IMG/VR virus record: IMGVR_UViG_3300035664_000014
Location: 1-63,308 of that record
Source of the DNA: a virus
Length of the DNA: 63,308 nt
Reading direction: 5' to 3' (one strand)
Part shown: positions 10,511-52,820 of the stretch, piece by piece
Layout: the number at the start of each line of letters is the position of its first letter
How positions within the stretch are numbered: the stretch's first letter is position 1
Position numbers and translations under genes: made by a program
Notes under the pieces: model-generated
The model's database searches: none
Seen by the model: only the letters and a program-made list of their open reading frames with translations
What the model was told of the DNA's origin: nothing

Positions 10511-11926
10511 ATGCCTGACGTAAAGATTTCAGCACTCCCGACAGCAACCACCATTGCCGATGCGGATATTCTTGTCGTAAACCAAGGTTCGCCTGCTGTA
10601 ACGAAGAAGATTTCGTATGGAACTCTGCTGCCAGTTGCAGCGACAAATACGGGCACTTTTGGCAATGATCACGAAGTTGCACAGGTGACTATCGACTCCA
10701 AGGGCAGGACAACCGCAGCGGCATCAGTGCCCATCAATGCGTCCAACATCTCTGTTGGCACACTCCCAGTAGACCACGGAGGCACTGGGGCTGCAACGCA
10801 CACGGCTGGAGCTTATCTAAAGGGGAACGGGACAGCAGCAATTACAACGGCAGCAACAGTTCCAGTTGCAGATATTGCAGGGACACTGCCTGTAGCCAAA
10901 GGCGGGACTGGAGCAGCAACACTCACGGGGTTCGTCAAAGCAAGCGGCACGAATGCCATGACGGCATCCGCAACCGTTGCGCTAGGCAGCGAGGTATCCG
11001 GCACATTGCCAGTGGCAAACGGAGGCACGGGCGCAGCAACGCTCACAGCAAGCGGATATCTCAAAGGCAACGGAACTAGCGCAATTACCTCCCAAACTGG
11101 AGTGCCAGCGGCAGACATCACAGGAACGCTAGGGATTCCGGCAGGAGGCACGGGGCAAACAACGCAGCAGGCAGCATTGAACGCTCTAGCTGGAGCGGCA
11201 ACGAACGCGCAGTATCTGCGAGGCAACGGCACGAACGTAGTGATGTCTGCACTGCAAGCGGCAGACTTGAGCGGCACAATTTCGTCCTCAAACTTGGCTG
11301 ACACTGGCGTATCCGCAACGTCATACGGATCATCAACTCAAGTTGGGACATTCACGGTAGATTCAAAAGGGAGATTAACAACAGCAGCTTCAGTTGCAAT
11401 TTCAGCATCTGGGATTGGCGCAATAACGACGACTACTGGAGGAACCATTTCAAGTGCTGGAATCACTGGAACAGCCTTGGCTATCAATTGTCCAAACTCG
11501 TTATTCGGAATAACGTCAACGACGACGATTGCCTCGCCAACCCTGTTTGCCTCATCGGACAACTTGACGGGGACGACGATTACGACAAACGGCGTGTCGC
11601 TCAAAGCATCCGCTGGAATCACATTCGGCTCATCAGGGACTCAGACAGTCCCATATATAGCTCCGCTGAAATTCTCAACAACCCTTGGGATATTGAGTCT
11701 GAACCCAGGGGCAACAATGTCGATTACAATTACAGGTTCGGGACTATTGAAAACATATCCAGTGCTTGTGGCGATAAATCAAACGTCAAATATACCAAAT
11801 TACCTGCTACTTACAGCGTACTGCTCAAGCTCGACGACAATCTCCGTTACAATAAGAAACTCCTCATCAGCAACGACAGCCAACTTTGACTCTGGCGCAA
11901 CAATAGAAGCTACGGTATTTAGATAG
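10511..11926 (+). CDS. Tail fibre protein with GGTGAAT repeats
   Basis: A 471-residue protein built of repeats of the form LPVANGGTGAAT (about residues 80-220), well known from phage tail fibre stems, preceded by a short N-terminal attachment region (MPDVKISALP). The C-terminal 130 residues are Thr/Ser-rich beta structure and likely the tip. Base composition drifts lower in G+C toward the 3' end, as is common in receptor-binding tips acquired by recombination. Confidence 0.85.
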   Translation: MPDVKISALPTATTIADADILVVNQGSPAVTKKISYGTLLPVAATNTGTFGNDHEVAQVTIDSKGRTTAAASVPINASNISVGTLPVDHGGTGAATHTAGAYLKGNGTAAITTAATVPVADIAGTLPVAKGGTGAATLTGFVKASGTNAMTASATVALGSEVSGTLPVANGGTGAATLTASGYLKGNGTSAITSQTGVPAADITGTLGIPAGGTGQTTQQAALNALAGAATNAQYLRGNGTNVVMSALQAADLSGTISSSNLADTGVSATSYGSSTQVGTFTVDSKGRLTTAASVAISASGIGAITTTTGGTISSAGITGTALAINCPNSLFGITSTTTIASPTLFASSDNLTGTTITTNGVSLKASAGITFGSSGTQTVPYIAPLKFSTTLGILSLNPGATMSITITGSGLLKTYPVLVAINQTSNIPNYLLLTAYCSSSTTISVTIRNSSSATTANFDSGATIEATVFR

Positions 11927-12249: not shown

Positions 12250-13455
12250 ATGCCAGACATCCAAGTTTCATCAGATATTGATTCCTTCATGCTGTCTGCC
12301 AATCGGCAGGCCGCAATGGACAATCTTGCAGGATCAACAACCTCTGGAAGATACCTTCGTGGGAATGGAACGGATGTGGTCATGTCCACAATCCAGGCAG
12401 CGGATGTCCCAACGCTCAACCAGAACACCACTGGAACTGCTTCAAACGTCACTGGAACGGTTGCCACTGCAAACGGCGGAACAGGGCAGACGACTTACAG
12501 CAACGGGCAGCTTCTAATCGGCAACACCGCAGGCGGGCTTACAAAGGCAACGCTGACGGCTGGGAGTAATGTCACCATCACGAACGGCAATGGAGCTATC
12601 ACCATTGCATCTTCTGGCGGCAGTGTAACCCCGACCGACGTGCAGATATTCACATCGAACGGAACGTGGACAAAGCCTGCTGGGGCTGTATCGGTTAACA
12701 TTCAACTCTTCGGCGCAGGCGGAGGAGGTTCGAGTGGGCAGAAAAATAACAACACAACAATCGCTCGCGTTGCAGGTGGTGGAGGCTGTGGAGGTTCCTA
12801 TTTAAATGCAAACATCAGGGCTTCAGATTTAGGGGCAACGGAATCTGTTCTCATTGGCCTTGGTGGCGCAGGCGGGGCTGGACAAACAACAAACGGTGGA
12901 AGTCAAATTGCAGGCACAGCTGGAGGCAATACAACCTTTGGGTCGCTTATTGCTTTGGGAGGAGTTGCTGGTCAGGCCAACGGAACTGCTGGCACTGGAG
13001 GGCTGCAAGCGAATCCTGGTGGATCTGCTTCTGGAACAGGCTCAACTGGCGCGGCTGGATCTCCTTCGCTTGTAACTGTTTTAGCTGCGTATGGTGGTGC
13101 TGGTGGAGCAGGAGGAGGCGGCCTTACCAACACATCAGTGACTTCTGCTGGAGGAGCAGGCGGACGGTCTCATGCATTAAATTTAGCTGGTGGAGCAGCA
13201 GGAGCGCAAAGCAATGGCCCAGCTAACGCAGGGGCAGGGGGAGCGGGATTGTCTGCTCCAGCGAACATTTTTGCAGTTGGTTCTGGCGGAGGAGGCGGAG
13301 GAGGTGCAAAAGGTGGCGGAAGCGGAGGAGCAGGTGGAGCAGGTGGATTCCCAGCAGGCGGCGGGGGTGGTGGTGGAGCGACCGAAGATGGAGCAACAAG
13401 CGGCGCAGGCGGCACAGGCGCAAATGGGTTTGCTATTATAACAACTTACTTCTAA
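12250..13455 (+). CDS. Glycine-rich tail fibre, phage A/B junction copy
   Basis: A 401-residue fibre. The N terminus (MPDIQVSSDIDSFM) is an attachment segment, then come GGTGQTT repeats and a domain beginning TSNGTWTKPAGAVSVNI that is typical of glycine-rich tip proteins. The last 270 residues hold many GGGG-type runs, comparable with polyglycine-II receptor-binding domains of phage adhesins. From residue 126 on, the DNA is identical to the gene at 51615-52820. In the composite model the 5' part belongs to phage A and everything after the 960-bp repeat belongs to phage B. Confidence 0.88.
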   Translation: MPDIQVSSDIDSFMLSANRQAAMDNLAGSTTSGRYLRGNGTDVVMSTIQAADVPTLNQNTTGTASNVTGTVATANGGTGQTTYSNGQLLIGNTAGGLTKATLTAGSNVTITNGNGAITIASSGGSVTPTDVQIFTSNGTWTKPAGAVSVNIQLFGAGGGGSSGQKNNNTTIARVAGGGGCGGSYLNANIRASDLGATESVLIGLGGAGGAGQTTNGGSQIAGTAGGNTTFGSLIALGGVAGQANGTAGTGGLQANPGGSASGTGSTGAAGSPSLVTVLAAYGGAGGAGGGGLTNTSVTSAGGAGGRSHALNLAGGAAGAQSNGPANAGAGGAGLSAPANIFAVGSGGGGGGGAKGGGSGGAGGAGGFPAGGGGGGGATEDGATSGAGGTGANGFAIITTYF

Positions 13456-28746: not shown

Positions 28747-29086
28747 AGAAGAGATAGGGATATTGGAGCAGGCCGTCATGCAGCAGCATGGGGCGAACCT
28801 CCAGAACCTGCTCGCAGAGTCAGGCCGTGGATACGGTCAACTCACAACGGAAGTGGACGGAGTCAAACTGACGTATGAGGTCAAGGCGACCTACCTGTGG
28901 GATCAGGGCAAGTTGCAGGCTCTGTACGAGTCGCTGCCGCTGGCTGACGCACGGGAGCTTGTCACCACTAAGATGTCGGTGTCGGCTAAGACCATTGAGC
29001 GCATCGGCAACGAAGACGTGCTGAGGCGCGTTATGGAGGCGCGTACCACCAAGTTCAGTGAGCCCCGTATCACCTTCATCAAATGA
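28685..29086 (+). CDS. Hypothetical protein upstream of Sak4-like gene
   Basis: A 133-residue protein: an N-terminal coiled coil (residues 1-35, KKMREEIAKRLTKISALEEE), then a mixed alpha/beta region ending PRITFIK. No family is recognised. The stop overlaps the start of the Sak4-like ATPase (ATGA), so a recombination- or replication-linked role is likely from context only. Confidence 0.65.
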   Translation: MNLKKMREEIAKRLTKISALEEEIGILEQAVMQQHGANLQNLLAESGRGYGQLTTEVDGVKLTYEVKATYLWDQGKLQALYESLPLADARELVTTKMSVSAKTIERIGNEDVLRRVMEARTTKFSEPRITFIK

Positions 29087-29928
29087 GCCTGCGCATCATT
29101 AAGGCAGACGAGCGCCTAAAGCGCACCTCGGACTGCATTAAGGCAGTTGTGTTCGGCCCTGCCGGTGTTGGCAAAACATACCAAGCCCGCACGCTGGACG
29201 CGAAGAGCACCCTGTTCGTTGACCTCGAGGCCGGTACGTTGGCGCTGGGCAAAGACTGGAAGGGCGACTGCCTCGACATTCGCGGCACGTCAAACGAGAT
29301 GGGGGCTCATCCGTGGGAGCTGGCGAAGGCCATCGCCCTGTGGCTGGGTGGACCGGATCCTGCCGACGCCAACGGCTCTTACTCGAAGTCGGCGTACGAG
29401 TCCGTTGTGAAGGCGTTCGGGCCGGCGTCCGGTCATGAGCAGTATGAAACGCTGTTCGTTGACTCCATCACCGTGGCGAGTCGGATGTGCTTCGCATGGT
29501 GTCAGCAGCAGCCCGAGGCGTTCAGCGACAAGACCGGTAAGCCCGACACCCGTGGGGCCTACGGGCTTCTTGGACGCGAAATGATTCGCTGGGTAACCCA
29601 ACTACAGCACTGCCACAAGAACGTGGTGCTGGTGGGGATTCTGGAGCAGCAGGAGGATGAGTTAAAGAGGAAGTACTGGGACGTTCAAATCGAGGGCTCG
29701 AAGACGGGCCGCGAGTTGCCTGGTATCTTTGACCTCGTCCTGACGCTTCAGAACTTCGAGGCAGAGGACAAGTCGCAATACCGCGCATTCGTCTGTCATC
29801 AACAGAACCCGTGGGGCTACCCCGCCAAAGACCGCTCCGGTACGCTGGAGCTTCAAGAACCCGCTGACCTTGGGAAGGTGCTCGCCAAGATTCGCGCAGG
29901 TAAACGCATCGACACCGCCAAACACTAA
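29083..29928 (+). CDS. Sak4/RecA-like ATPase (AAA_24)
   Basis: A 281-residue ATPase with Walker A GPAGVGKT (about residues 25-32), Walker B-like LFVDSIT (about residues 126-132) and a RecA-type core. This layout matches the phage Sak4 / AAA_24 single-strand annealing proteins that help recombination-dependent replication. An SSB-like DUF669 gene follows after 18 bp, and a Cas4/RecB-like nuclease lies further on, which supports a recombination module. Confidence 0.82.
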   Translation: MSLRIIKADERLKRTSDCIKAVVFGPAGVGKTYQARTLDAKSTLFVDLEAGTLALGKDWKGDCLDIRGTSNEMGAHPWELAKAIALWLGGPDPADANGSYSKSAYESVVKAFGPASGHEQYETLFVDSITVASRMCFAWCQQQPEAFSDKTGKPDTRGAYGLLGREMIRWVTQLQHCHKNVVLVGILEQQEDELKRKYWDVQIEGSKTGRELPGIFDLVLTLQNFEAEDKSQYRAFVCHQQNPWGYPAKDRSGTLELQEPADLGKVLAKIRAGKRIDTAKH

Positions 29929-29946: not shown

Positions 29947-30519
29947 ATGTTCAACGCACAATCAACAAACGTCGGGTCAACAGAGATGGAACTCATTCCC
30001 AAGGGGACAGTGGCGAAAGCCGTCCTTGTGGTGAAGGAGCGCAAGAGCAGTCAGTCCACCGGTGGAGACTACCTCTCCATCGAGCTCGCCATCCAAGGGG
30101 GACAATACAACAACCGGCGTGTGTTCGGGATGGTCTGCAACCCGTTCGATGAGAACAACAGCGAGGTGTGGCGCCAGATGGGAATCGGGGCAATCACTCG
30201 CATTCTTGAGAGCCGTGGCGTCTTTAACTACGAAGACCCATCCTCATACGAGAAGTTCAATGACGGTGATTTCAACTCAATCATTGAGGCGCTCAACGGC
30301 GCTGAGGTCGTCATCAAAGTCGGCATCGACAAGGGCAAGGACGGACGCGCTGACCGCAACTCCATCAGCGACTGGGGTTCACCCAACCCAAGCAGCAACG
30401 GGCACAAGCTCTGGAACCAAGCCAATGAGAGTGCGCCCGAGGCGAAAGCACCGGTGCCAGTAGCGAAGACCGCCGCGCCTGCGGCGACGGCTGGCAAGAA
30501 ACCTGCTTGGTTGAAGTAG
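29947..30519 (+). CDS. DUF669 single-strand DNA-binding-like protein
   Basis: A 190-residue protein with an N-terminal beta domain (MELIPKGTVAKAVLVVKERK, LSIELAIQGG, RRVFGMVCNPFDE) and an Ala/Pro/Lys-rich C-terminal tail (AKAPVPVAKTAAPAATAG). This is the DUF669 pattern, a phage ssDNA-binding protein family often beside Sak-type annealing proteins. A strong terminator follows 17 bp after the stop. Confidence 0.8.
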   Translation: MFNAQSTNVGSTEMELIPKGTVAKAVLVVKERKSSQSTGGDYLSIELAIQGGQYNNRRVFGMVCNPFDENNSEVWRQMGIGAITRILESRGVFNYEDPSSYEKFNDGDFNSIIEALNGAEVVIKVGIDKGKDGRADRNSISDWGSPNPSSNGHKLWNQANESAPEAKAPVPVAKTAAPAATAGKKPAWLK

Positions 30520-30672: not shown

Positions 30673-32316
30673 ATGATTTTACGACCAAGGCAGGCGCAGT
30701 TCGTTGACGCCTGTATCGACGCACTGGGCAAGTGCGGCAACACATTAGGAATCGCGCCAACTGGCGCAGGTAAGACGGTCATGGGCAGCGCGATTCTTGC
30801 GCCGTTCGTGAAGAAAGCACCGGTGCTCGTCATCCAGCACCGCGACGAGCTTGTCACCCAAAACAAAGAGACCTTCAAGCGGTACAACCCGTCGGCCAAG
30901 GTTGATGTGTTCAACGCTGAACGCAAGGCGTGGTCCAGCGGGGCGACCTTCGGGATGGTGCAGACGCTGTGCCGGCCGCTCAACTTGGCAACGATGCCAA
31001 GCGGGATGTCGGCGCTCTTCTGTGATGAGTGCCACCACATAGCGGCTGACAGTTACATGAGGATTGTGGAGGCGTTCCGCGAGAAGTCTCCGAAAGGAGT
31101 CATCTTGGGGCTCACCGCAACTCCGGAGCGAGGCGATAAGCAGGCGCTCACGGCGGTGTTTAACAACGTGGCCGACAAAATCACCGTGGGCGAGCTTATC
31201 GCAGCGGGGAACTTGGTTCAGCCGCGTGCGTTCCGCATGGACATCGGGCTCAACGACCAGCTCCAGAACGTGCAGAAGACCGGTGCAGAGTTCGACATGG
31301 GCGAAGTCGAGGCCATCATGGACAAGCGTGCGGTTCACTCGGAGATTCTGAGGCACTGGCGCGAGAAGGCGTCAGACCGGTCCACCGTGGTCTTCTGCTC
31401 GACCATCCAACACGCGCAACACTTGGCTGAGGCGTTCCGCGACGACGGTATCTCCGCCGAGGCCGTCCACTCCGAGATGTCGGACGACGACAACGCCACC
31501 ATCCTGCGCCGGTTCGACCAAGGGAAAATCAAGGTGCTCCTCAACGTGATGAAGCTGACGGAGGGTTGGGACTGCCAACGTGTGGGGTGCGTTGTTCTGG
31601 TGCGCCCATGCAGCCAGAAGAGCACCATGATCCAGATGATTGGGCGAGGGCTCAGACCGTGCATCGACGCGAAGCGATACCCTGGGGTCATTAAGAGCGA
31701 TTGCATCGTTCTCGACTTCGGCGCATCGCTGCTCACGCACGGGGACATCGACGCTGGAGATCGGTTGTTCGTGCGCCAGAGCGAGACCGGCGAGGCGCCC
31801 ATGAAGAAGTGCCCCGAGTGCGGTATTCAGGTGCCGGCAGCGGTCGGGAGCTGCCCCGTGTGCGGCTACATCTTCCCCGTGCGGGTCAACGGCGTTGAGA
31901 CCATCGAATCGTTTGAGATGTCGGAGATGCAAATCATCGAGATGTCGCCGTTCCGGTGGGAGTCGATGTACAGCGATGCGGTGCGAATGGCGAACGCGCT
32001 CACTGCGTGGGGCGCGGTCATCAGACTTGGCGAGGTGTACAACGCCATTGGCGGCGTCACTGGAGGCGCGGTCACCATCATCACCCGCACAAACTCGAAG
32101 GAACTTGCGCTTGCTCAGGCTGACGACTTCCTTCGTAGCAACGGTGATAGAACGAACTCCCGCAAGACGCGCAGTTGGATTAAGCTGCCACCAACGGACT
32201 CACAACTGAAGCATATGGCTGATGTTCCGATGTTTGGGATGTCGCGCTACCGCGCAAGCTGCGTGCTCACGTGGAAGTTCAACGAGGCACGCATAAAAAA
32301 AGCGATTCTTGGCTAA
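30673..32316 (+). CDS. Superfamily II DEAD/DEAH-like helicase
   Basis: A 547-residue helicase. A Q-like motif LRPRQAQFVD sits at the start, motif I is APTGAGKT (about residues 28-35), motif II is DECHH (about 117-121), motif III-like GLTATPERGD follows, and motif VI-like MIGRGLRP lies near residue 324. A zinc ribbon (CPEC...CPVCGY, about 379-396) is inserted near the C terminus. Such helicases in phage replication modules act in DNA unwinding or recombination. The gene follows a strong terminator, so it probably has its own promoter in 30576-30672. Confidence 0.88.
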   Translation: MILRPRQAQFVDACIDALGKCGNTLGIAPTGAGKTVMGSAILAPFVKKAPVLVIQHRDELVTQNKETFKRYNPSAKVDVFNAERKAWSSGATFGMVQTLCRPLNLATMPSGMSALFCDECHHIAADSYMRIVEAFREKSPKGVILGLTATPERGDKQALTAVFNNVADKITVGELIAAGNLVQPRAFRMDIGLNDQLQNVQKTGAEFDMGEVEAIMDKRAVHSEILRHWREKASDRSTVVFCSTIQHAQHLAEAFRDDGISAEAVHSEMSDDDNATILRRFDQGKIKVLLNVMKLTEGWDCQRVGCVVLVRPCSQKSTMIQMIGRGLRPCIDAKRYPGVIKSDCIVLDFGASLLTHGDIDAGDRLFVRQSETGEAPMKKCPECGIQVPAAVGSCPVCGYIFPVRVNGVETIESFEMSEMQIIEMSPFRWESMYSDAVRMANALTAWGAVIRLGEVYNAIGGVTGGAVTIITRTNSKELALAQADDFLRSNGDRTNSRKTRSWIKLPPTDSQLKHMADVPMFGMSRYRASCVLTWKFNEARIKKAILG

Positions 32317-32321
32317 AGAAC

Positions 32322-32600
32322 ATGGAAAACCAACCGAAAGAGACAGTATGTACTCAAAACTGTGGCGCGAAATCATCCAACCCGTCCTCGACCAGCGCCG
32401 TCGAACACCCAGCGCATTACAACAAGCATCCGAGCGGAATCGAATGCATAGACATTGCAGAGGCATTTTCGTTCAACCTTGGAAACGTGATAAAGTACGT
32501 GTTCAGGGCTGGGTTCAAGGACAATGAAGTTCAAGACCTTGAAAAAGCGGCATGGTACCTGAGAAGAGAGATTTCACGCAGAGCAACAACAACAAAATGA
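32322..32600 (+). CDS. DUF3310 (SaV-like) protein
   Basis: A 92-residue protein. From residue 30 it carries the DUF3310 signature: EHPAHYNKHPSGIECIDI, FNLGNVIKYVFRAGFK and DLEKAAWYLRREI. DUF3310 proteins are common small phage early proteins, linked to nucleotide kinase domains in some phages; their role is unsettled. I chose the ATG at 32322 because an upstream in-frame start lies within the helicase gene. Confidence 0.82.
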   Translation: MENQPKETVCTQNCGAKSSNPSSTSAVEHPAHYNKHPSGIECIDIAEAFSFNLGNVIKYVFRAGFKDNEVQDLEKAAWYLRREISRRATTTK

Positions 32601-32743
32601 AAAACAGACTAGAACAAGAAGCCACTGAGCTTCTGGCACTGACGGAGACGCTACTTCAGTCGCACCCAAACCGGCGTGCGTTCGAGGCAACATTTAAACG
32701 CATCGAGGCCGAAATCATTCGCCTCAGAAAGGAGACAAAATGA
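32597..32743 (+). CDS. Small helical hypothetical protein
   Basis: A 48-residue helical protein (KNRLEQEATELLALTETLLQ, then KRIEAEIIRLRKETK) starting in an ATGA overlap with the DUF3310 gene and ending in another ATGA overlap. It is probably a coiled-coil dimer. No function can be assigned. Confidence 0.65.
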   Translation: MKNRLEQEATELLALTETLLQSHPNRRAFEATFKRIEAEIIRLRKETK

Positions 32744-32904
32744 ACCTCCCAAGCTGGTACGATAGCTGGCTCACCAACGACGAGAGCGAGGCAGAGAAGC
32801 AGTGCAACTGCGGTAACGTCATGGAGTGGAGCGTGCGCTCTGAGATGTGGTTTTGCCCAGACTGCGACACGCAAGTGCCAAGAGAAGAGGAGGTGCATCC
32901 GTGA
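32740..32904 (+). CDS. Small zinc-ribbon protein
   Basis: A 54-residue protein with CNCGNVMEW and FCPDCDTQ, forming a probable four-cysteine zinc ribbon, after an acidic N terminus. It ends EEEVHP, because its last codons are the first copy of an 18-bp junction (32887-32904) that serves as ribosome site and start for the next gene. Confidence 0.7.
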   Translation: MNLPSWYDSWLTNDESEAEKQCNCGNVMEWSVRSEMWFCPDCDTQVPREEEVHP

Positions 32905-33137
32905 ATGGGTACTACTACAAATCCGGCGAAGATGCGCTCAAAGGGCCGTTTAAGTCGATGCGCGAAGTCAAAAAGGAAATCCTCAAAGAAGCGAAAGAGT
33001 GTTTCGATGAATCGTGCAACTGCCTGAAACGCGAGGAAAACCGAAACTGGTTTGATGTTGTTGAAATCTTTCAGCGTGTCGCAGTATTCCGTCCTACGGT
33101 CACAAGCAAGCTGAAGCTAGAGGAGGTGCAGCCATGA
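32901..33137 (+). CDS. Small hypothetical protein of cassette array
   Basis: A 78-residue protein starting at GTG (NGYYYKSGEDALKGPFKSM). It is helical and charged, with two cysteines (CNC region), and ends LEEVQP. A reading frame extends further upstream, but the GTG is placed ideally after the GAGGAGGTG ribosome site. It is part of a run of small genes joined by an identical junction. Confidence 0.68.
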   Translation: MNGYYYKSGEDALKGPFKSMREVKKEILKEAKECFDESCNCLKREENRNWFDVVEIFQRVAVFRPTVTSKLKLEEVQP

Positions 33138-33469
33138 CCAACCAGCAAATGAATGTGGCGATTGCCGAAGCGTGTGGATGGACTGACATCCATGACAGTG
33201 GGCCTTGGCACAATCACAAGCTGTGGGGCTATCCGCCAGAACTCCCAGGACAAGGCGGCAACGCATATAAGTATATGCCAGACTACTGCAACGACCTCAA
33301 CGCGATGCACGAAGCGGAGGAGGTGCTGACTGACGACCAGCGTGAGGTGTTTTACCCTAGAAACCTTGGTGCTTGGCAAAGCCCATTCAACGTCATTTAC
33401 GCCCCCGCCCGTCAACGGGCAGAGGCGTTTCTGCGCACGGTAGGCAAGTGGGAGGAGGTGCAGCCGTGA
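33134..33469 (+). CDS. Hypothetical protein, ABA-sandwich-like
   Basis: A 111-residue protein with IAEACGWTDIHD, then YMPDYCNDLNAMHEAEEVL (about residues 47-65), a pattern like the small phage 'ABA sandwich' proteins that begin with an aromatic helix and contain a P.Y..DLNAM motif. It ends WEEVQP through the repeated junction. The function is unknown. Confidence 0.72.
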   Translation: MTNQQMNVAIAEACGWTDIHDSGPWHNHKLWGYPPELPGQGGNAYKYMPDYCNDLNAMHEAEEVLTDDQREVFYPRNLGAWQSPFNVIYAPARQRAEAFLRTVGKWEEVQP

Positions 33470-33690
33470 GCAGTCACAACATAGAGCAGGTTGTTGGGTG
33501 CATCCCCTCGCTTGTGCAGGCGCAGACAAACGCACAGGTCGTTGTTTTGCTTGTGCGGGACAGTAATGACGAGAACCACATTGTCGCAAAGGGACGGGGA
33601 TGGAAGTCACTGCTCACATCTGCTGCGGCTAAGGTGTTTAATGAAACTGCCGAGGATTCCTCGGTGGTTGGAGAGGAGGTGCAGCCGTGA
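33466..33690 (+). CDS. Small hypothetical protein of cassette array
   Basis: A 74-residue protein from GTG at 33466 (SSHNIEQVVGCIPSLVQAQ). It is a mixed alpha/beta protein that ends GEEVQP through the fourth copy of the junction. No family is recognised. Confidence 0.65.
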   Translation: MSSHNIEQVVGCIPSLVQAQTNAQVVVLLVRDSNDENHIVAKGRGWKSLLTSAAAKVFNETAEDSSVVGEEVQP

Positions 33691-33938
33691 GTGAGTACTG
33701 CACATCCTGCGGTGTTGCGTGGGAGAACCACTTCGGGCTGGCATACACCTGCCGGTCTTTAAGCGAAGCCGCTGAAGAGCGCGACGAGTACAAGGCGCGG
33801 CTGAACACCGCGACTGAAACCATCAAGCGCCTCGAGTCCGAGATCGCCGAATGGCGGCTAGCCAGCGGTGTTGAGGGCCCTCTATTCTTGAAACATGAAA
33901 CTGCTGGCAACCCTGTTCGCAGCCATCGCCATAGCTGA
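33687..33938 (+). CDS. Small Cys-containing coiled-coil protein
   Basis: An 83-residue protein starting at GTG. CTSCG near the N terminus suggests half a zinc site, followed by a coiled coil (AEERDEYKARLNTATETIKRL). It overlaps the next small membrane gene by 44 bp. It is the last gene of the junction-linked array. Confidence 0.62.
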   Translation: MSEYCTSCGVAWENHFGLAYTCRSLSEAAEERDEYKARLNTATETIKRLESEIAEWRLASGVEGPLFLKHETAGNPVRSHRHS

Positions 33939-34056
33939 CACCGTGAAACTCTACCAACAGGAGGACAAAGCCTCCGTAACCGCGTATCTGCTGGTGTTGC
34001 TCTTGGCAATCTTCGGCATCTTCTACGCCCTTAAGAACGACGATGAGCATCTTTAA
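33895..34056 (+). CDS. Small two-helix membrane protein
   Basis: A 53-residue protein with two hydrophobic helices (residues 2-15 and 29-46) separated by a charged loop (YQQEDKAS). Its frame overlaps the preceding gene by 44 bp and the following nuclease by 14 bp. Such peptides can be membrane-acting phage early proteins; the function is unknown. Confidence 0.5.
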   Translation: MKLLATLFAAIAIADTVKLYQQEDKASVTAYLLVLLLAIFGIFYALKNDDEHL

Positions 34057-34840
34057 GCCAGAGACCAAGAAGGTCATCGGGAATGAGCCAGCACAAGCCG
34101 CTATCGCAGCCGTCATCGACGGCGCGATTTTGGCGCGTCAGGCAAACCAAGAAAAGCGGGACTATCTCGGGGCTTCGCGCTGGGGGGAGGCGTGCGAGCG
34201 CCGGCTCCGGTACGAGTACGAACACGCCCCCGAGGACGAAGGCGCCGGCTTCCCGCCGGAGGTGCTGCGCATCTTCGACATGGGGCACGACGGCGAAGAC
34301 CGCATGGCGAAGTATATCCGCGCTGCGGGTTTCGACCTGCTCACCGAGAAGAGCGACGGCAAACAGTTCGGCTTCCGCGCTGCTGACGGGCGCCTCGGTG
34401 GACACATCGACGGCATCATCGCCGGCGGCCCCACCATCACCGGTGTTGAGTACCCGCTCCTTTGGGAGAACAAGGCGCTCAACGATAAAAGCTGGAACGA
34501 CACCAAGAACAAAGGCGTGAAGGCATCAAAGCCGGTGTACTACGCCCAGATGCAAATCTACTGCGCCTACCTTGACATTCCCGCAGGCGGTATGTTCACG
34601 GCGCTCAACCGCGACACCGGTGAGGTGCTTGTTGAGCTTGTGCCCTTTGATGCGCTCGCAGCCCAAGAAGCCTCGGATCGTGCGGTGCGCGTCATCGACG
34701 CTCAATCGCCTAAGGAACTCCCGCGCCTCGGCAAAGACCGCACCGACTTTCGGTGCAAGTTCTGCTCGTTCAAGAGCACCTGTTGGGAGGATGCTCCCAC
34801 TCAGGCACCCAACACCACAAAGCCGTTCTGGCTGAAGTAA
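34043..34840 (+). CDS. PD-(D/E)XK nuclease, Cas4/RecB-like with four-Cys cluster
   Basis: A 265-residue protein with the PD-(D/E)XK core: HIDGII (Asp123) and WENKA (Glu142, Lys144). One cysteine lies early (GEACERRL, Cys51) and three late (CKFCSFKSTC, Cys238/241/247), the spacing seen in Fe-S nucleases of the Cas4/AddB/Exo5 type. It probably trims DNA ends to produce single strands for Sak4-like annealing. No CRISPR array or other cas gene is present. Confidence 0.8.
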   Translation: MSIFKPETKKVIGNEPAQAAIAAVIDGAILARQANQEKRDYLGASRWGEACERRLRYEYEHAPEDEGAGFPPEVLRIFDMGHDGEDRMAKYIRAAGFDLLTEKSDGKQFGFRAADGRLGGHIDGIIAGGPTITGVEYPLLWENKALNDKSWNDTKNKGVKASKPVYYAQMQIYCAYLDIPAGGMFTALNRDTGEVLVELVPFDALAAQEASDRAVRVIDAQSPKELPRLGKDRTDFRCKFCSFKSTCWEDAPTQAPNTTKPFWLK

Positions 34841-38173: not shown

Positions 38174-38623
38174 ATGACGTTCACTTTCTTCGTTTCCGGA
38201 ACTCCTCGCCCACAGCCAAGACCGCGCTTTGTGCGTGGGAGAGCGGTGTCCACCTTGGATGCTGGCTCGAGCGCGTGGAAGGGGCTGTTGCGCTCGTCTG
38301 CGGGGGTTGTTTTAAGCAAGGCCGGCAAGACGGCTGAGTCGCTTGGGTTGACTGAGGCGATTTCGATGGAGCTGACCTTCCACTTTGCGACCAAGGAGGA
38401 GGCGCGTCACGGTCAGCCGCACACGCACAAACCGGATGCGGACAACCTGGCGAAGCTGGTGATGGACGCGCTGGTGGATGGCGGTATGTGGGTTGGGGAC
38501 GACAGCCGTGTGGCGGATTTGACCGTGCGCAAGCGTTGGTGCAAGGCCGGCAGTGAGGGAGTCGCGGTGAGCATCTATGTCGACGCGCCGGCGGAGGAGA
38601 AGCCACCGGAGTGGCTTTTGTGA
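38174..38623 (+). CDS. rusA: RusA-family Holliday junction resolvase
   Basis: A 149-residue protein with the RusA signature: TPRPQPRPRF near the N terminus, KPDADNLAKLVMDAL (residues 86-100) and DDSRVADLTVRKRW (about 109-122), supplying the conserved aspartates and lysine. RusA dimers cut four-way junctions. Here it would resolve recombination or replication intermediates before packaging, together with the Sak4-like and nuclease proteins upstream. Confidence 0.88.
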   Translation: MTFTFFVSGTPRPQPRPRFVRGRAVSTLDAGSSAWKGLLRSSAGVVLSKAGKTAESLGLTEAISMELTFHFATKEEARHGQPHTHKPDADNLAKLVMDALVDGGMWVGDDSRVADLTVRKRWCKAGSEGVAVSIYVDAPAEEKPPEWLL

Positions 38624-40213: not shown

Positions 40214-40620
40214 TAAATCTTGCGACACCTGCCGCTCGCGGTCACGGGTAATGCCGATGGCGACGCATAAGAGTGGTGTGACAGGCCGGAGAGACGGCCA
40301 ACCAAAAAACCGGATTAATGTTCCAGTTTCAAAAAGGCTGACGGGATTTTCAGATTCGTGAAAAGTTTTCCAAAACCCACAAAATCGGAAAACCATCCCA
40401 CCCAGAAAACAGGACGTAAATCCGTTTGTCCTGTTGCGCAGTGAGCGGTAAGCGCCGGTCAGCTCCCACGGGACGGGACGGGACGGCGGAACGGATCAGG
40501 CGGGGGATGAGGCGGGGGACGGGATGAGGGATATGGCATAGAGCATGGCATAGGTCAGGAACGCGCAGAAAGGCACCGAGAACGCGGCGAAGGGCGCGGC
40601 GCGGGTGAGGAGCGCAGGGC
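40214..40620. other. Gap after DUF2829 gene with repeat and small candidate frame
   Basis: About 400 bp. It contains the first copy of a duplicated ~90-bp element (40304-40393), a possible 36-residue frame (40251-40361) that ends in the conserved KNRIN.P motif, and a GGGAC-type short tandem repeat near 40469-40485. Minus-strand frames here are Arg/Pro-rich and look like shadows. Confidence 0.45.
40304..40393. repeat. Duplicated ~90-bp element, copy 1
   Basis: Imperfect copy of 41085-41175. Both share AAAACCGGATTAA, ATTTTC and TTCGTGAAAA. Both end in a pair of inverted arms (here TTTTCAGATT 40347-40356 and AATCGGAAAA 40383-40392). Read on the plus strand, both encode KNRIN.P..KRL..FS.S followed by TGA. 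Confidence 0.7.
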
Positions 40621-40979: not shown

Positions 40980-41422
40980 GGTTTGTTTCTGGTTTGGGGT
41001 TGTCTTGGGTTTGTCGGCAACTCCGACGGAAAGCTTTAGGGGAAAGTTTGCGAAAAGTTTGCGAAAGGGGTGGGGTTTGTGGCGGAAAAACCGGATTAAC
41101 GAACCAAATCCGAAACGGTTGGCGAGATTTTCGATTTCGTGAAAAAGTTTCTAAAAGGCAGAAAATCGAAAAACGGTTTCAGGTGGAAAATGCGGGTTTC
41201 AGAGGGGTTCGGGAGCGTGAATGGCGCACTAAGTTGAGTTTGCTTAGGTTGGATTTAAGGCGGGAAAGGTGAACGCGTGCAGAGAAGAGGAAAGAAACAT
41301 GGGCCTAGAACGAGCGGAAAGTGGGTGAGAACGCGAGGAAGGAAGCGGTGAAGGTGGCCGTATCGGACAAGGGGTGAGAAGCGCGGGAAGGGGTAAAGGG
41401 GAAGCGGGACGGATGGAGACAC
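40980..41422. other. Non-coding leader between minus-strand accessory genes
   Basis: About 440 bp without a convincing gene. It holds a perfect tandem 11-bp repeat AAGTTTGCGAA (41044-41065), related to the iteron-like units at 37.6-37.8 kb, and the second copy of the ~90-bp element. A purine-rich plus strand (41250-41420) follows. This is presumably the promoter and leader region for the minus-strand gene at 40683-40979. Confidence 0.5.
41085..41175. repeat. Duplicated ~90-bp element, copy 2
   Basis: Homologous to 40304-40393. Here the inverted arms are perfect (TTTTCGATTT 41128-41137 and AAATCGAAAA 41163-41172). The two copies differ in both arms in a matching way, which hints that the pairing is conserved. 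Confidence 0.7.
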
Positions 41423-51614: not shown

Positions 51615-52820
51615 ATGCCTGACATTACAGTATCCTCTGACATCGACTCCTTCATGCAGTCTGCCAACCGGCAGGCCGCGATGGACAACCTCGCCGGCGC
51701 AACGACCTCCGGTCAGTACCTTCGCGGGAACGGATCGGACGTTGTTATGTCGGCAATCCAAGCCGCTGACGTCCCAACGCTCAACCAGAACACGACCGGC
51801 ACGGCGGCTGGTCTGTCCGCAACGCTGGCTGAGACGTCTGGCGGAACGGGGAAGACCAGCTACACGAACGGAGAGCTTCTCATCGGCAACGCCGCAGGCG
51901 GGCTTACAAAGGCTACGCTGACGGCAGGTAGCAATGTCACCATCACGAACGGCAACGGAGCTATCACCATTGCATCTTCTGGCGGCAGCGCAACCCCGAC
52001 CGACGTGCAGATATTCACATCGAACGGAACGTGGACAAAGCCTGCTGGGGCTGTATCGGTTAACATTCAACTCTTCGGCGCAGGCGGAGGAGGTTCGAGT
52101 GGGCAGAAAAATAACAACACAACAATCGCTCGCGTTGCAGGTGGTGGAGGCTGTGGAGGTTCCTATTTAAATGCAAACATCAGGGCTTCAGATTTAGGGG
52201 CAACGGAATCTGTTCTCATTGGCCTTGGTGGCGCAGGCGGGGCTGGACAAACAACAAACGGTGGAAGTCAAATTGCAGGCACAGCTGGAGGCAATACAAC
52301 CTTTGGGTCGCTTATTGCTTTGGGAGGAGTTGCTGGTCAGGCCAACGGAACTGCTGGCACTGGAGGGCTGCAAGCGAATCCTGGTGGATCTGCTTCTGGA
52401 ACAGGCTCAACTGGCGCGGCTGGATCTCCTTCGCTTGTAACTGTTTTAGCTGCGTATGGTGGTGCTGGTGGAGCAGGAGGAGGCGGCCTTACCAACACAT
52501 CAGTGACTTCTGCTGGAGGAGCAGGCGGACGGTCTCATGCATTAAATTTAGCTGGTGGAGCAGCAGGAGCGCAAAGCAATGGCCCAGCTAACGCAGGGGC
52601 AGGGGGAGCGGGATTGTCTGCTCCAGCGAACATTTTTGCAGTTGGTTCTGGCGGAGGAGGCGGAGGAGGTGCAAAAGGTGGCGGAAGCGGAGGAGCAGGT
52701 GGAGCAGGTGGATTCCCAGCAGGCGGCGGGGGTGGTGGTGGAGCGACCGAAGATGGAGCAACAAGCGGCGCAGGCGGCACAGGCGCAAATGGGTTTGCTA
52801 TTATAACAACTTACTTCTAA
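51615..52820 (+). CDS. Glycine-rich tail fibre, phage B/A junction copy
   Basis: A 401-residue fibre of the same design as 12250-13455: the N-terminal MPDITVSSDIDSFMQSANRQ segment, a GGTGKTS repeat, the TSNGTWTKPAGAV domain and a Gly-rich tip. Residues 1-125 are homologous but divergent from the other copy; the rest is encoded by identical DNA. In the composite model, the 5' part is phage B and the sequence after the repeat is phage A. Confidence 0.88.
   Translation: MPDITVSSDIDSFMQSANRQAAMDNLAGATTSGQYLRGNGSDVVMSAIQAADVPTLNQNTTGTAAGLSATLAETSGGTGKTSYTNGELLIGNAAGGLTKATLTAGSNVTITNGNGAITIASSGGSATPTDVQIFTSNGTWTKPAGAVSVNIQLFGAGGGGSSGQKNNNTTIARVAGGGGCGGSYLNANIRASDLGATESVLIGLGGAGGAGQTTNGGSQIAGTAGGNTTFGSLIALGGVAGQANGTAGTGGLQANPGGSASGTGSTGAAGSPSLVTVLAAYGGAGGAGGGGLTNTSVTSAGGAGGRSHALNLAGGAAGAQSNGPANAGAGGAGLSAPANIFAVGSGGGGGGGAKGGGSGGAGGAGGFPAGGGGGGGATEDGATSGAGGTGANGFAIITTYF

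Follow-up and report, generated by a model that had tools for sequence, protein, structure and literature searches.

Short conserved sequences at the module borders of lambdoid phages were proposed as sites of homologous exchange, and at most phage mosaic joints such conserved borders cannot be identified (PMC3029335). In cluster K mycobacteriophages, the SAS, with the sequence GGGATAGGAGCCC, is located 3–7 bp from the start, and half of the SAS sites are accompanied by 17-bp inverted repeats, the ESAS, with translation initiation as the proposed role (PMC3203893). A long-standing question is whether the mosaics of phages come from homologous exchange at conserved borders or from random joints on which selection then acts. 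The PeSLs of T4-type phages, reportedly described by Arbiol in 2010 and Comeau in 2014, are said to be intergenic elements composed of a promoter and a stem-loop, and are taken to mediate modular shuffling.

The locus described here lies in an IMG/VR virus record of 63,308 bp, the whole of which is referred to as the window. An array of small genes was identified in a replication and recombination region, where the order is Sak4-like protein, SSB-like protein, helicase, DUF3310 protein, array, Cas4-type exonuclease, primase-helicase and RusA-like resolvase (Table 1). Besides the weak SSB families given in Table 1, the SSB-like gene matched phrog_2300 (E 5e-18), a family of unknown function. 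The array consists of a fixed left-end gene (UP), three cassettes (c5, c0 and c4) and a fixed right-end gene (DN), and its four boundaries carry an 18-bp junction with the consensus GAGGAGGTGCA(G/T)CC(G/A)TGA.

Table 1. Array genes, junctions and neighbouring genes in the window. Junctions were located by a scan within 3 mismatches.
Feature	Coordinates	Strand	Description	Match or occurrence
Sak4-like protein	29083–29928	+	single-strand annealing protein, candidate exchange agent	phrog_124, E 7.9e-39
SSB-like protein	29947–30519	+	adjoins Sak4	weak SSB families phrog_9002, E 0.005, and phrog_6015, E 0.012
DEAD-type DNA helicase	30673–32316	+	left neighbour	phrog_16, E 4.7e-85
DUF3310 protein	32322–32600	+	left neighbour	PF11753, E 7.5e-17
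UP	32740–32904	+	fixed left-end array gene, 54 aa, zinc-ribbon-like CxC...CPDC	first in 38 loci
Junction 1	32887–32904	+	GAGGAGGTGCATCCGTGA
Cassette c5	32901–33137	+	78 aa, GTG start at 32901, no known family	family elsewhere in arrays
Junction 2	33120–33137	+	GAGGAGGTGCAGCCATGA
Cassette c0	33134–33469	+	111 aa, ATG start at 33134	commonest family, 54 array members
Junction 3	33452–33469	+	GAGGAGGTGCAGCCGTGA
Cassette c4	33466–33690	+	74 aa, GTG start at 33466, no known family	family also elsewhere
Junction 4	33673–33690	+	GAGGAGGTGCAGCCGTGA
DN	33687–33938	+	fixed right-end array gene, 83 aa, GTG start at 33687	last in 34 loci
Cas4-domain exonuclease	34043–34840	+	right-hand anchor for the sampling independent of the 18-mer	phrog_1990, E 7.6e-71
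RusA-like protein	38174–38623	+	Holliday junction resolvase	phrog_140, E 9.4e-24

A sequence-only reading of the window had placed four copies of the 18-mer at these positions. The scan of the whole window confirmed all four and detected no further site, while only 0.07 copies are expected in shuffled sequence and four copies were reached in none of 100 shuffles. The two variants reported in that reading were partly correct: the G/A variant is present in copy 2, but the supposed C/T variant is a G-to-T change in copy 1 (CAG to CAT). As had been claimed, each copy comprises the end of the upstream gene (codons for E-E-V-Q/H-P), a ribosome site and the overlapping start of the next gene. A perfect Shine–Dalgarno core, AGGAGGTG, stands at a fixed spacing to the start, and the last four bases, RTGA, supply both the upstream stop and the downstream start, one base out of frame, in a 4-bp overlap. 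The protein end EEVHP was found in UP and EEVQP in the three cassettes, and all-against-all BLASTP assigned the three to three different families, in agreement with the earlier view that the genes between the copies are unrelated. We take the left nine bases, (G/A)AGGAGGTG, to be the complement of the 16S anti-Shine–Dalgarno sequence CACCUCCUU, with a leading A pairing and a leading G not pairing. Since the junction combines the last codons, a full-strength Shine–Dalgarno sequence and the overlapping start, any cassettes cut within the core could be joined in frame. The same junction was found at none of the other tabulated gene boundaries of the window (1650–34840), and the tabulated starts outside the array (1650–32600), which are mechanical calls, mostly lack a recognisable or strong Shine–Dalgarno sequence and show mixed spacing. 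RNA folding at the junction was no better than in shuffles (z-scores of −0.6 to +1.4).

The junction had been likened to SAS and to lambdoid boundary sequences. The cluster K SAS is the closest described element in anatomy: both are repeated sequences with a Shine–Dalgarno core, located just 5′ of unrelated small non-structural genes and conserved beyond the need of the ribosome. However, the SAS has no fixed overlap with an upstream stop and no proposed role in cassette exchange, and only the AGGAG core of the GGGATAGGAGCCC consensus is common to the junction; the likeness thus stands in principle and fails in sequence. Inverted repeats of the ESAS type were not detected at the junction, where nothing is conserved beyond −14 and no structure exceeds that of shuffles. 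The PeSLs are alike in that a regulatory sequence between genes is regarded as mediating shuffling, whereas the junction lies inside coding sequence and has no stem-loop.

To avoid circularity, contigs of relatives were fetched through the neighbouring nuclease (at least 86% identical), and 5.5 kb upstream of it was read. UP (38 loci) always followed the sequence AGAAAGGAGxxxAAATGA, and DN was separated from the nuclease gene by about 105 bp in most loci. Between UP and DN, 0 to 7 cassettes were present, and the 34 complete arrays comprised 26 distinct ones, among them UP followed straight by DN with zero cassettes (L121 and L143), UP-c7-DN, UP-c0-DN, UP-c6-c3-c7-DN, UP-c6-c3-c0-DN and UP-c3-c0-c19-c4-c5-DN, as compared with UP-c5-c0-c4-DN in the window. 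The exact 4-bp-overlap junction, with the Shine–Dalgarno sequence in one register, was found at 143 of 144 boundaries, the lone exception being a 295-bp gap in L112. The family of window cassette c5 recurred at other positions in the arrays of L108, L111, L142, L103 and L051, and that of c4 was also present in L108, L117 and L158 as well as in a different backbone, L106 (96.5% nucleotide identity). Both orders were seen for seven family pairs, indicating re-ordering and not loss alone. Different cassettes between flanks of 93–99% identity were found in 21 pairs, with both flanks in this range for L126/L129, L110/L113 and L108/window, for example. The same arrays recurred across different IMG datasets (L123/L124/L019, L126/L127/L128, L113/L115 and L110/L138). 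The gain, loss and shuffling of units that the sequence-only reading had asked to be looked for among relatives were thus observed, units also passed between unrelated backbones, and an identical gene order everywhere, with no exchange, was not seen in the relatives compared. In L144, with a nuclease of 62% identity, the array is located after RusA (10882–11630) and not before the nuclease; therefore the array site itself can move. In cassette c19 of L108 (1964–2443), an accessory-like N-terminus is combined by fusion with the tail collar domain of a phage.

A degenerate form of the 18-mer was detected in 106 stretches among 2.9 million viral contigs, and 29 of the 106 were multi-copy, with two to four exact copies at differing spacings. 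In contrast, a scan with a control 18-mer of equal composition, in which two bases of the spacer had been exchanged, detected 33 stretches, none of them with more than one copy. Family sorting indicated that the genes between the 18-mer copies belong to the same families in different orders. The core pattern occurred in one orientation only per record in the ten records checked, and the reversed control never occurred. Since most of the scrambled-spacer control sites were also located at ORF overlaps (28 of 33), the geometry of pattern-selected sites was dropped as evidence, and geometry was taken from the nuclease-anchored sample only. Neither chance nor convergence agrees with the shuffles, the control with the scrambled spacer or the comparisons among phages, and both are rejected.

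Break points were analysed in pairs of cassettes with at least 90% nucleotide identity and differing neighbours. For the 160 pairs with different upstream neighbours in the main set, which are counts of pairs and not of independent or phylogenetically independent events, identity always ended within 15 nt 5′ of the start codon, whereas it extended up to 5.6 kb where the upstream neighbour was the same. Likewise, identity always ended within 12 nt past the stop in the 52 pairs, counted in the same way, with different downstream neighbours. Over all loci, at least 45 upstream and at least 34 downstream neighbour switches are required, and in 88 of 97 comparisons the shared 5′ run did not exceed 15 nt; the nine longer runs (17–32 bases) probably reflect upstream genes that are related but were scored as different when compared without gaps. 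Among 99 unique junctions, the letters up to and including −14 were linked to the upstream family (z about 7 to 17), those from −2 onwards were linked to the downstream one (z about 3 to 14), positions −12 to −8 were invariant except in one sequence, and no conserved sequence was found upstream of −14. The last two amino acids of a cassette are therefore largely set by the following gene, and the c0 protein ends vary by neighbour (VQP, VQG, VAK, GAE, VQL and VQE). The exactly shared run between two junctions had a median of 9 nt and reached 12 or more in 25% of pairs.

The same cassettes were also found in phages with no, or only a distant, homologous terminase match. Across unrelated backbones, near-identical cassettes (99.4–100% nucleotide identity) mostly lost identity at −12 to −14 relative to the start and at 0 to +5 after the stop. 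Among the 47 ORFs compared, backbone C (L021/L070) has none homologous to the window outside the array and no terminase match, except that a separate search found the DUF3310 domain in common; its c7 matches that of L123 with 99.4% identity over a stretch that begins at −13 relative to the start and ends at +5 after the stop. The L103 backbone, which has some structural genes in common with the window, carries c5 (99.6%), c26 (99.7%) and the c0 of the window (99.4%), the last with different neighbours, and these matches end at −12 to −14 and at 0 to +4. Some full-length matches between backbones, such as that between L103 and L130 across several cassettes, run beyond the junction, indicating that blocks also move and that not every match is a single-cassette move. 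The array matches of L103 in record G004 (44.7 kb) lie at both ends, at 41.3–42.5 kb and 0.1–0.4 kb, as would be seen if a circular or permuted genome had been opened within the array. Cassette c21 (L116, 4233–4550), weakly similar to MazG nucleotide pyrophosphohydrolase, is also present in the unrelated backbone L021/L093 with about 95% nucleotide identity.

The commonest cassette, c0, is itself a mosaic, in which three conserved blocks alternate with two variable segments. Among 49 distinct sequences (copies in L109–L176), 13 N-side and 13 C-side segment types formed 28 combinations, including a complete cross-combination in which N types 1 and 3 each occur with C types 0, 1 and 2. These cross-combinations require recombination inside the gene, and exchange is therefore not confined to the junctions. 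The middle block, DLNAMHEAE, is nearly invariant, also at the DNA level. The structure model of c0 is confident (pLDDT 86.6) and matches uncharacterised phage proteins only. Searches for cassette functions in Pfam, PHROGs and PADLOC found little: DUF551, a weak MazG and one tail-collar match.

Taken together, these comparisons demonstrate, at the level of sequence, an exchange at the junction by which cassettes have been gained, lost, re-ordered and transferred as units. The modular array proposed in the sequence-only reading is supported by these changes and by the break points inside or near the junction. As at the lambdoid borders, a short conserved sequence is flanked on either side by modules that vary; it was found at the borders of different modules, and modules are replaced with break points there. 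The likeness is one of principle. In contrast to the lambdoid case, every single-gene border here has the same in-frame stop, Shine–Dalgarno and start, up to eight per genome, and the exchanges can be followed base by base. Integron cassettes are alike in forming a single-gene array of varying number and order between fixed ends, whereas the repeats here are plain direct repeats with no attC fold, and no tyrosine integrase was found in nine records, which may be partial. An identity with integrons or PeSLs was rejected by the defining tests, namely integrase and attC for the former and the stem-loop for the latter. A site-specific recombinase was also rejected, as neither tyrosine (PF00589 in 0 of 9) nor serine recombinases were found in these nine, possibly partial, records. 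We place the system among the conserved boundary sequences, as a variant in which an in-frame connector that couples translation is repeated through an array and serves a cassette pool common to different phages.

The explanation that we consider probable is an array of exchangeable cassettes, in which the junction would serve as the exchange site through phage annealing combined with selection. Each cassette is one small ORF, from the RTGA of one junction to the RTGA of the next, and cutting within the core would allow any cassette to join any other without loss of frame, translation or coupling. Annealing would take place at the short direct repeats while phage genomes replicate or co-infect a cell, with the Sak4-like annealing protein, the SSB-like protein, the Cas4-type exonuclease and RusA of the phage as candidate agents, and selection would retain only the joints that preserve translation. 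In phage HK620, Sak4 anneals single strands in an ATP-dependent manner and is stimulated by the SSB of that phage, and as many as 80% of sak4 genes adjoin an ssb gene (PMC5928155). Against this, no Sak4 match was found in the array backbones L103, L030 and L106, the records of which may be partial.

We infer homologous annealing at the repeat, as opposed to rarer illegitimate joining filtered by selection. The latter, in which joints are formed anywhere, the survivors keep a ribosome site and a start, and the shared sequence is the result, is unlikely but the most serious competitor. In its support, the core is complementary to the whole 16S tail and translation within a 4-bp overlap depends on it, and translation alone could conserve positions −14 to −6. 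The 18 bp of the junction repeat, which is the best case, is also below the pairing minima of 23–27 bp for Red-beta and 31–34 bp for RecA (quoted in PMC3945230), and spacer alleles other than CAGCC are present in the arrays (TGGCGAA, AGACGAA and AAGCACG). However, the boundaries show a single geometry, as compared with the mixed starts elsewhere in the window, and unrelated cassettes have in common spacer letters that the ribosome does not demand. Random joints should, moreover, often leave upstream remnants or truncated ends, while identity ended within 15 nt in all of the upstream switch pairs of the main set. All observations can be accommodated by a mixed model, in which selection for translatable operons enriches rare short-homology joints.

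The other alternatives have little to recommend them. Metagenome misjoins at 18-bp repeats are very improbable: all relatives are metagenome contigs and the 18-bp repeats recur in them, but identical arrays were found in contigs from different IMG datasets, as noted for L123/L124/L019. The k-mers usually used in assembly are longer than 18 bp, which also counts against such an artefact. We give scarcely any credence to convergent ribosome-binding sites in a vertically inherited cluster without exchange. The Shine–Dalgarno sequence at its ideal spacing agrees with such convergence and would account for the AGGAGGTG core, but it leaves the shared spacer, the single geometry and the break points unexplained; phages with near-identical flanks differ in gene content and order, and near-identical cassettes occur in unrelated backbones, so that the comparisons of arrays and backbones refute it. 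Equally improbable is a conserved C-terminal peptide, EEVQP, with a function in the protein; many cassette proteins do end in EEVQP or KEVQG, but within one family the ends vary with the next gene (VQP, VQG, VAE, VAK, VQL, VQE and GQA), and the letters from −2 to 0 follow the downstream gene.

In a search for the host, a nuclease profile run against 84,980 genomes detected only relatives, mainly alphaproteobacterial, with at most about 51% identity across most of the protein and one short segment at 59%. No chained array was present in the 74 nuclease loci scanned, including that of Acidithiobacillus phage AcaML1 (nuclease 50%), and the three window cassettes had no match in 50,697 phage records. 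The nearest terminase is that of EBPR podovirus 1 (62%), which is without the junction motif.

This system offers dozens of joints resolved to the base, donors and recipients that are near-identical, an empty site and candidate enzymes nearby, and so makes the question of how phage mosaics are formed directly testable. It also illustrates how one sequence can act both as a ribosome site and as a cloning site, and its cassettes form a pool of small early genes that move fast and merit a screen for activity against host defences. Tentatively, and with less confidence than in the exchange array itself, the junction may be viewed as a DNA-level adaptor, whereby unrelated phages would share a pool of single-gene cassettes that plug in at the stop/Shine–Dalgarno/start through their own annealing machinery, every recombinant being an in-frame, translated operon and the commonest cassette repeating this logic inside its gene. 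If true, this would be a natural assembly standard among unrelated phages.

Elsewhere in the window, two copies of a glycine-rich (GGAGG-rich) probable tail gene were found 39.4 kb apart (12250–13455 and 51615–52820), parts of which are 94% to 100% identical. Two 89-bp repeats (40305–40393 and 41086–41174) are 76% identical, lie where most genes run on the opposite strand, and are possibly regulatory sites.
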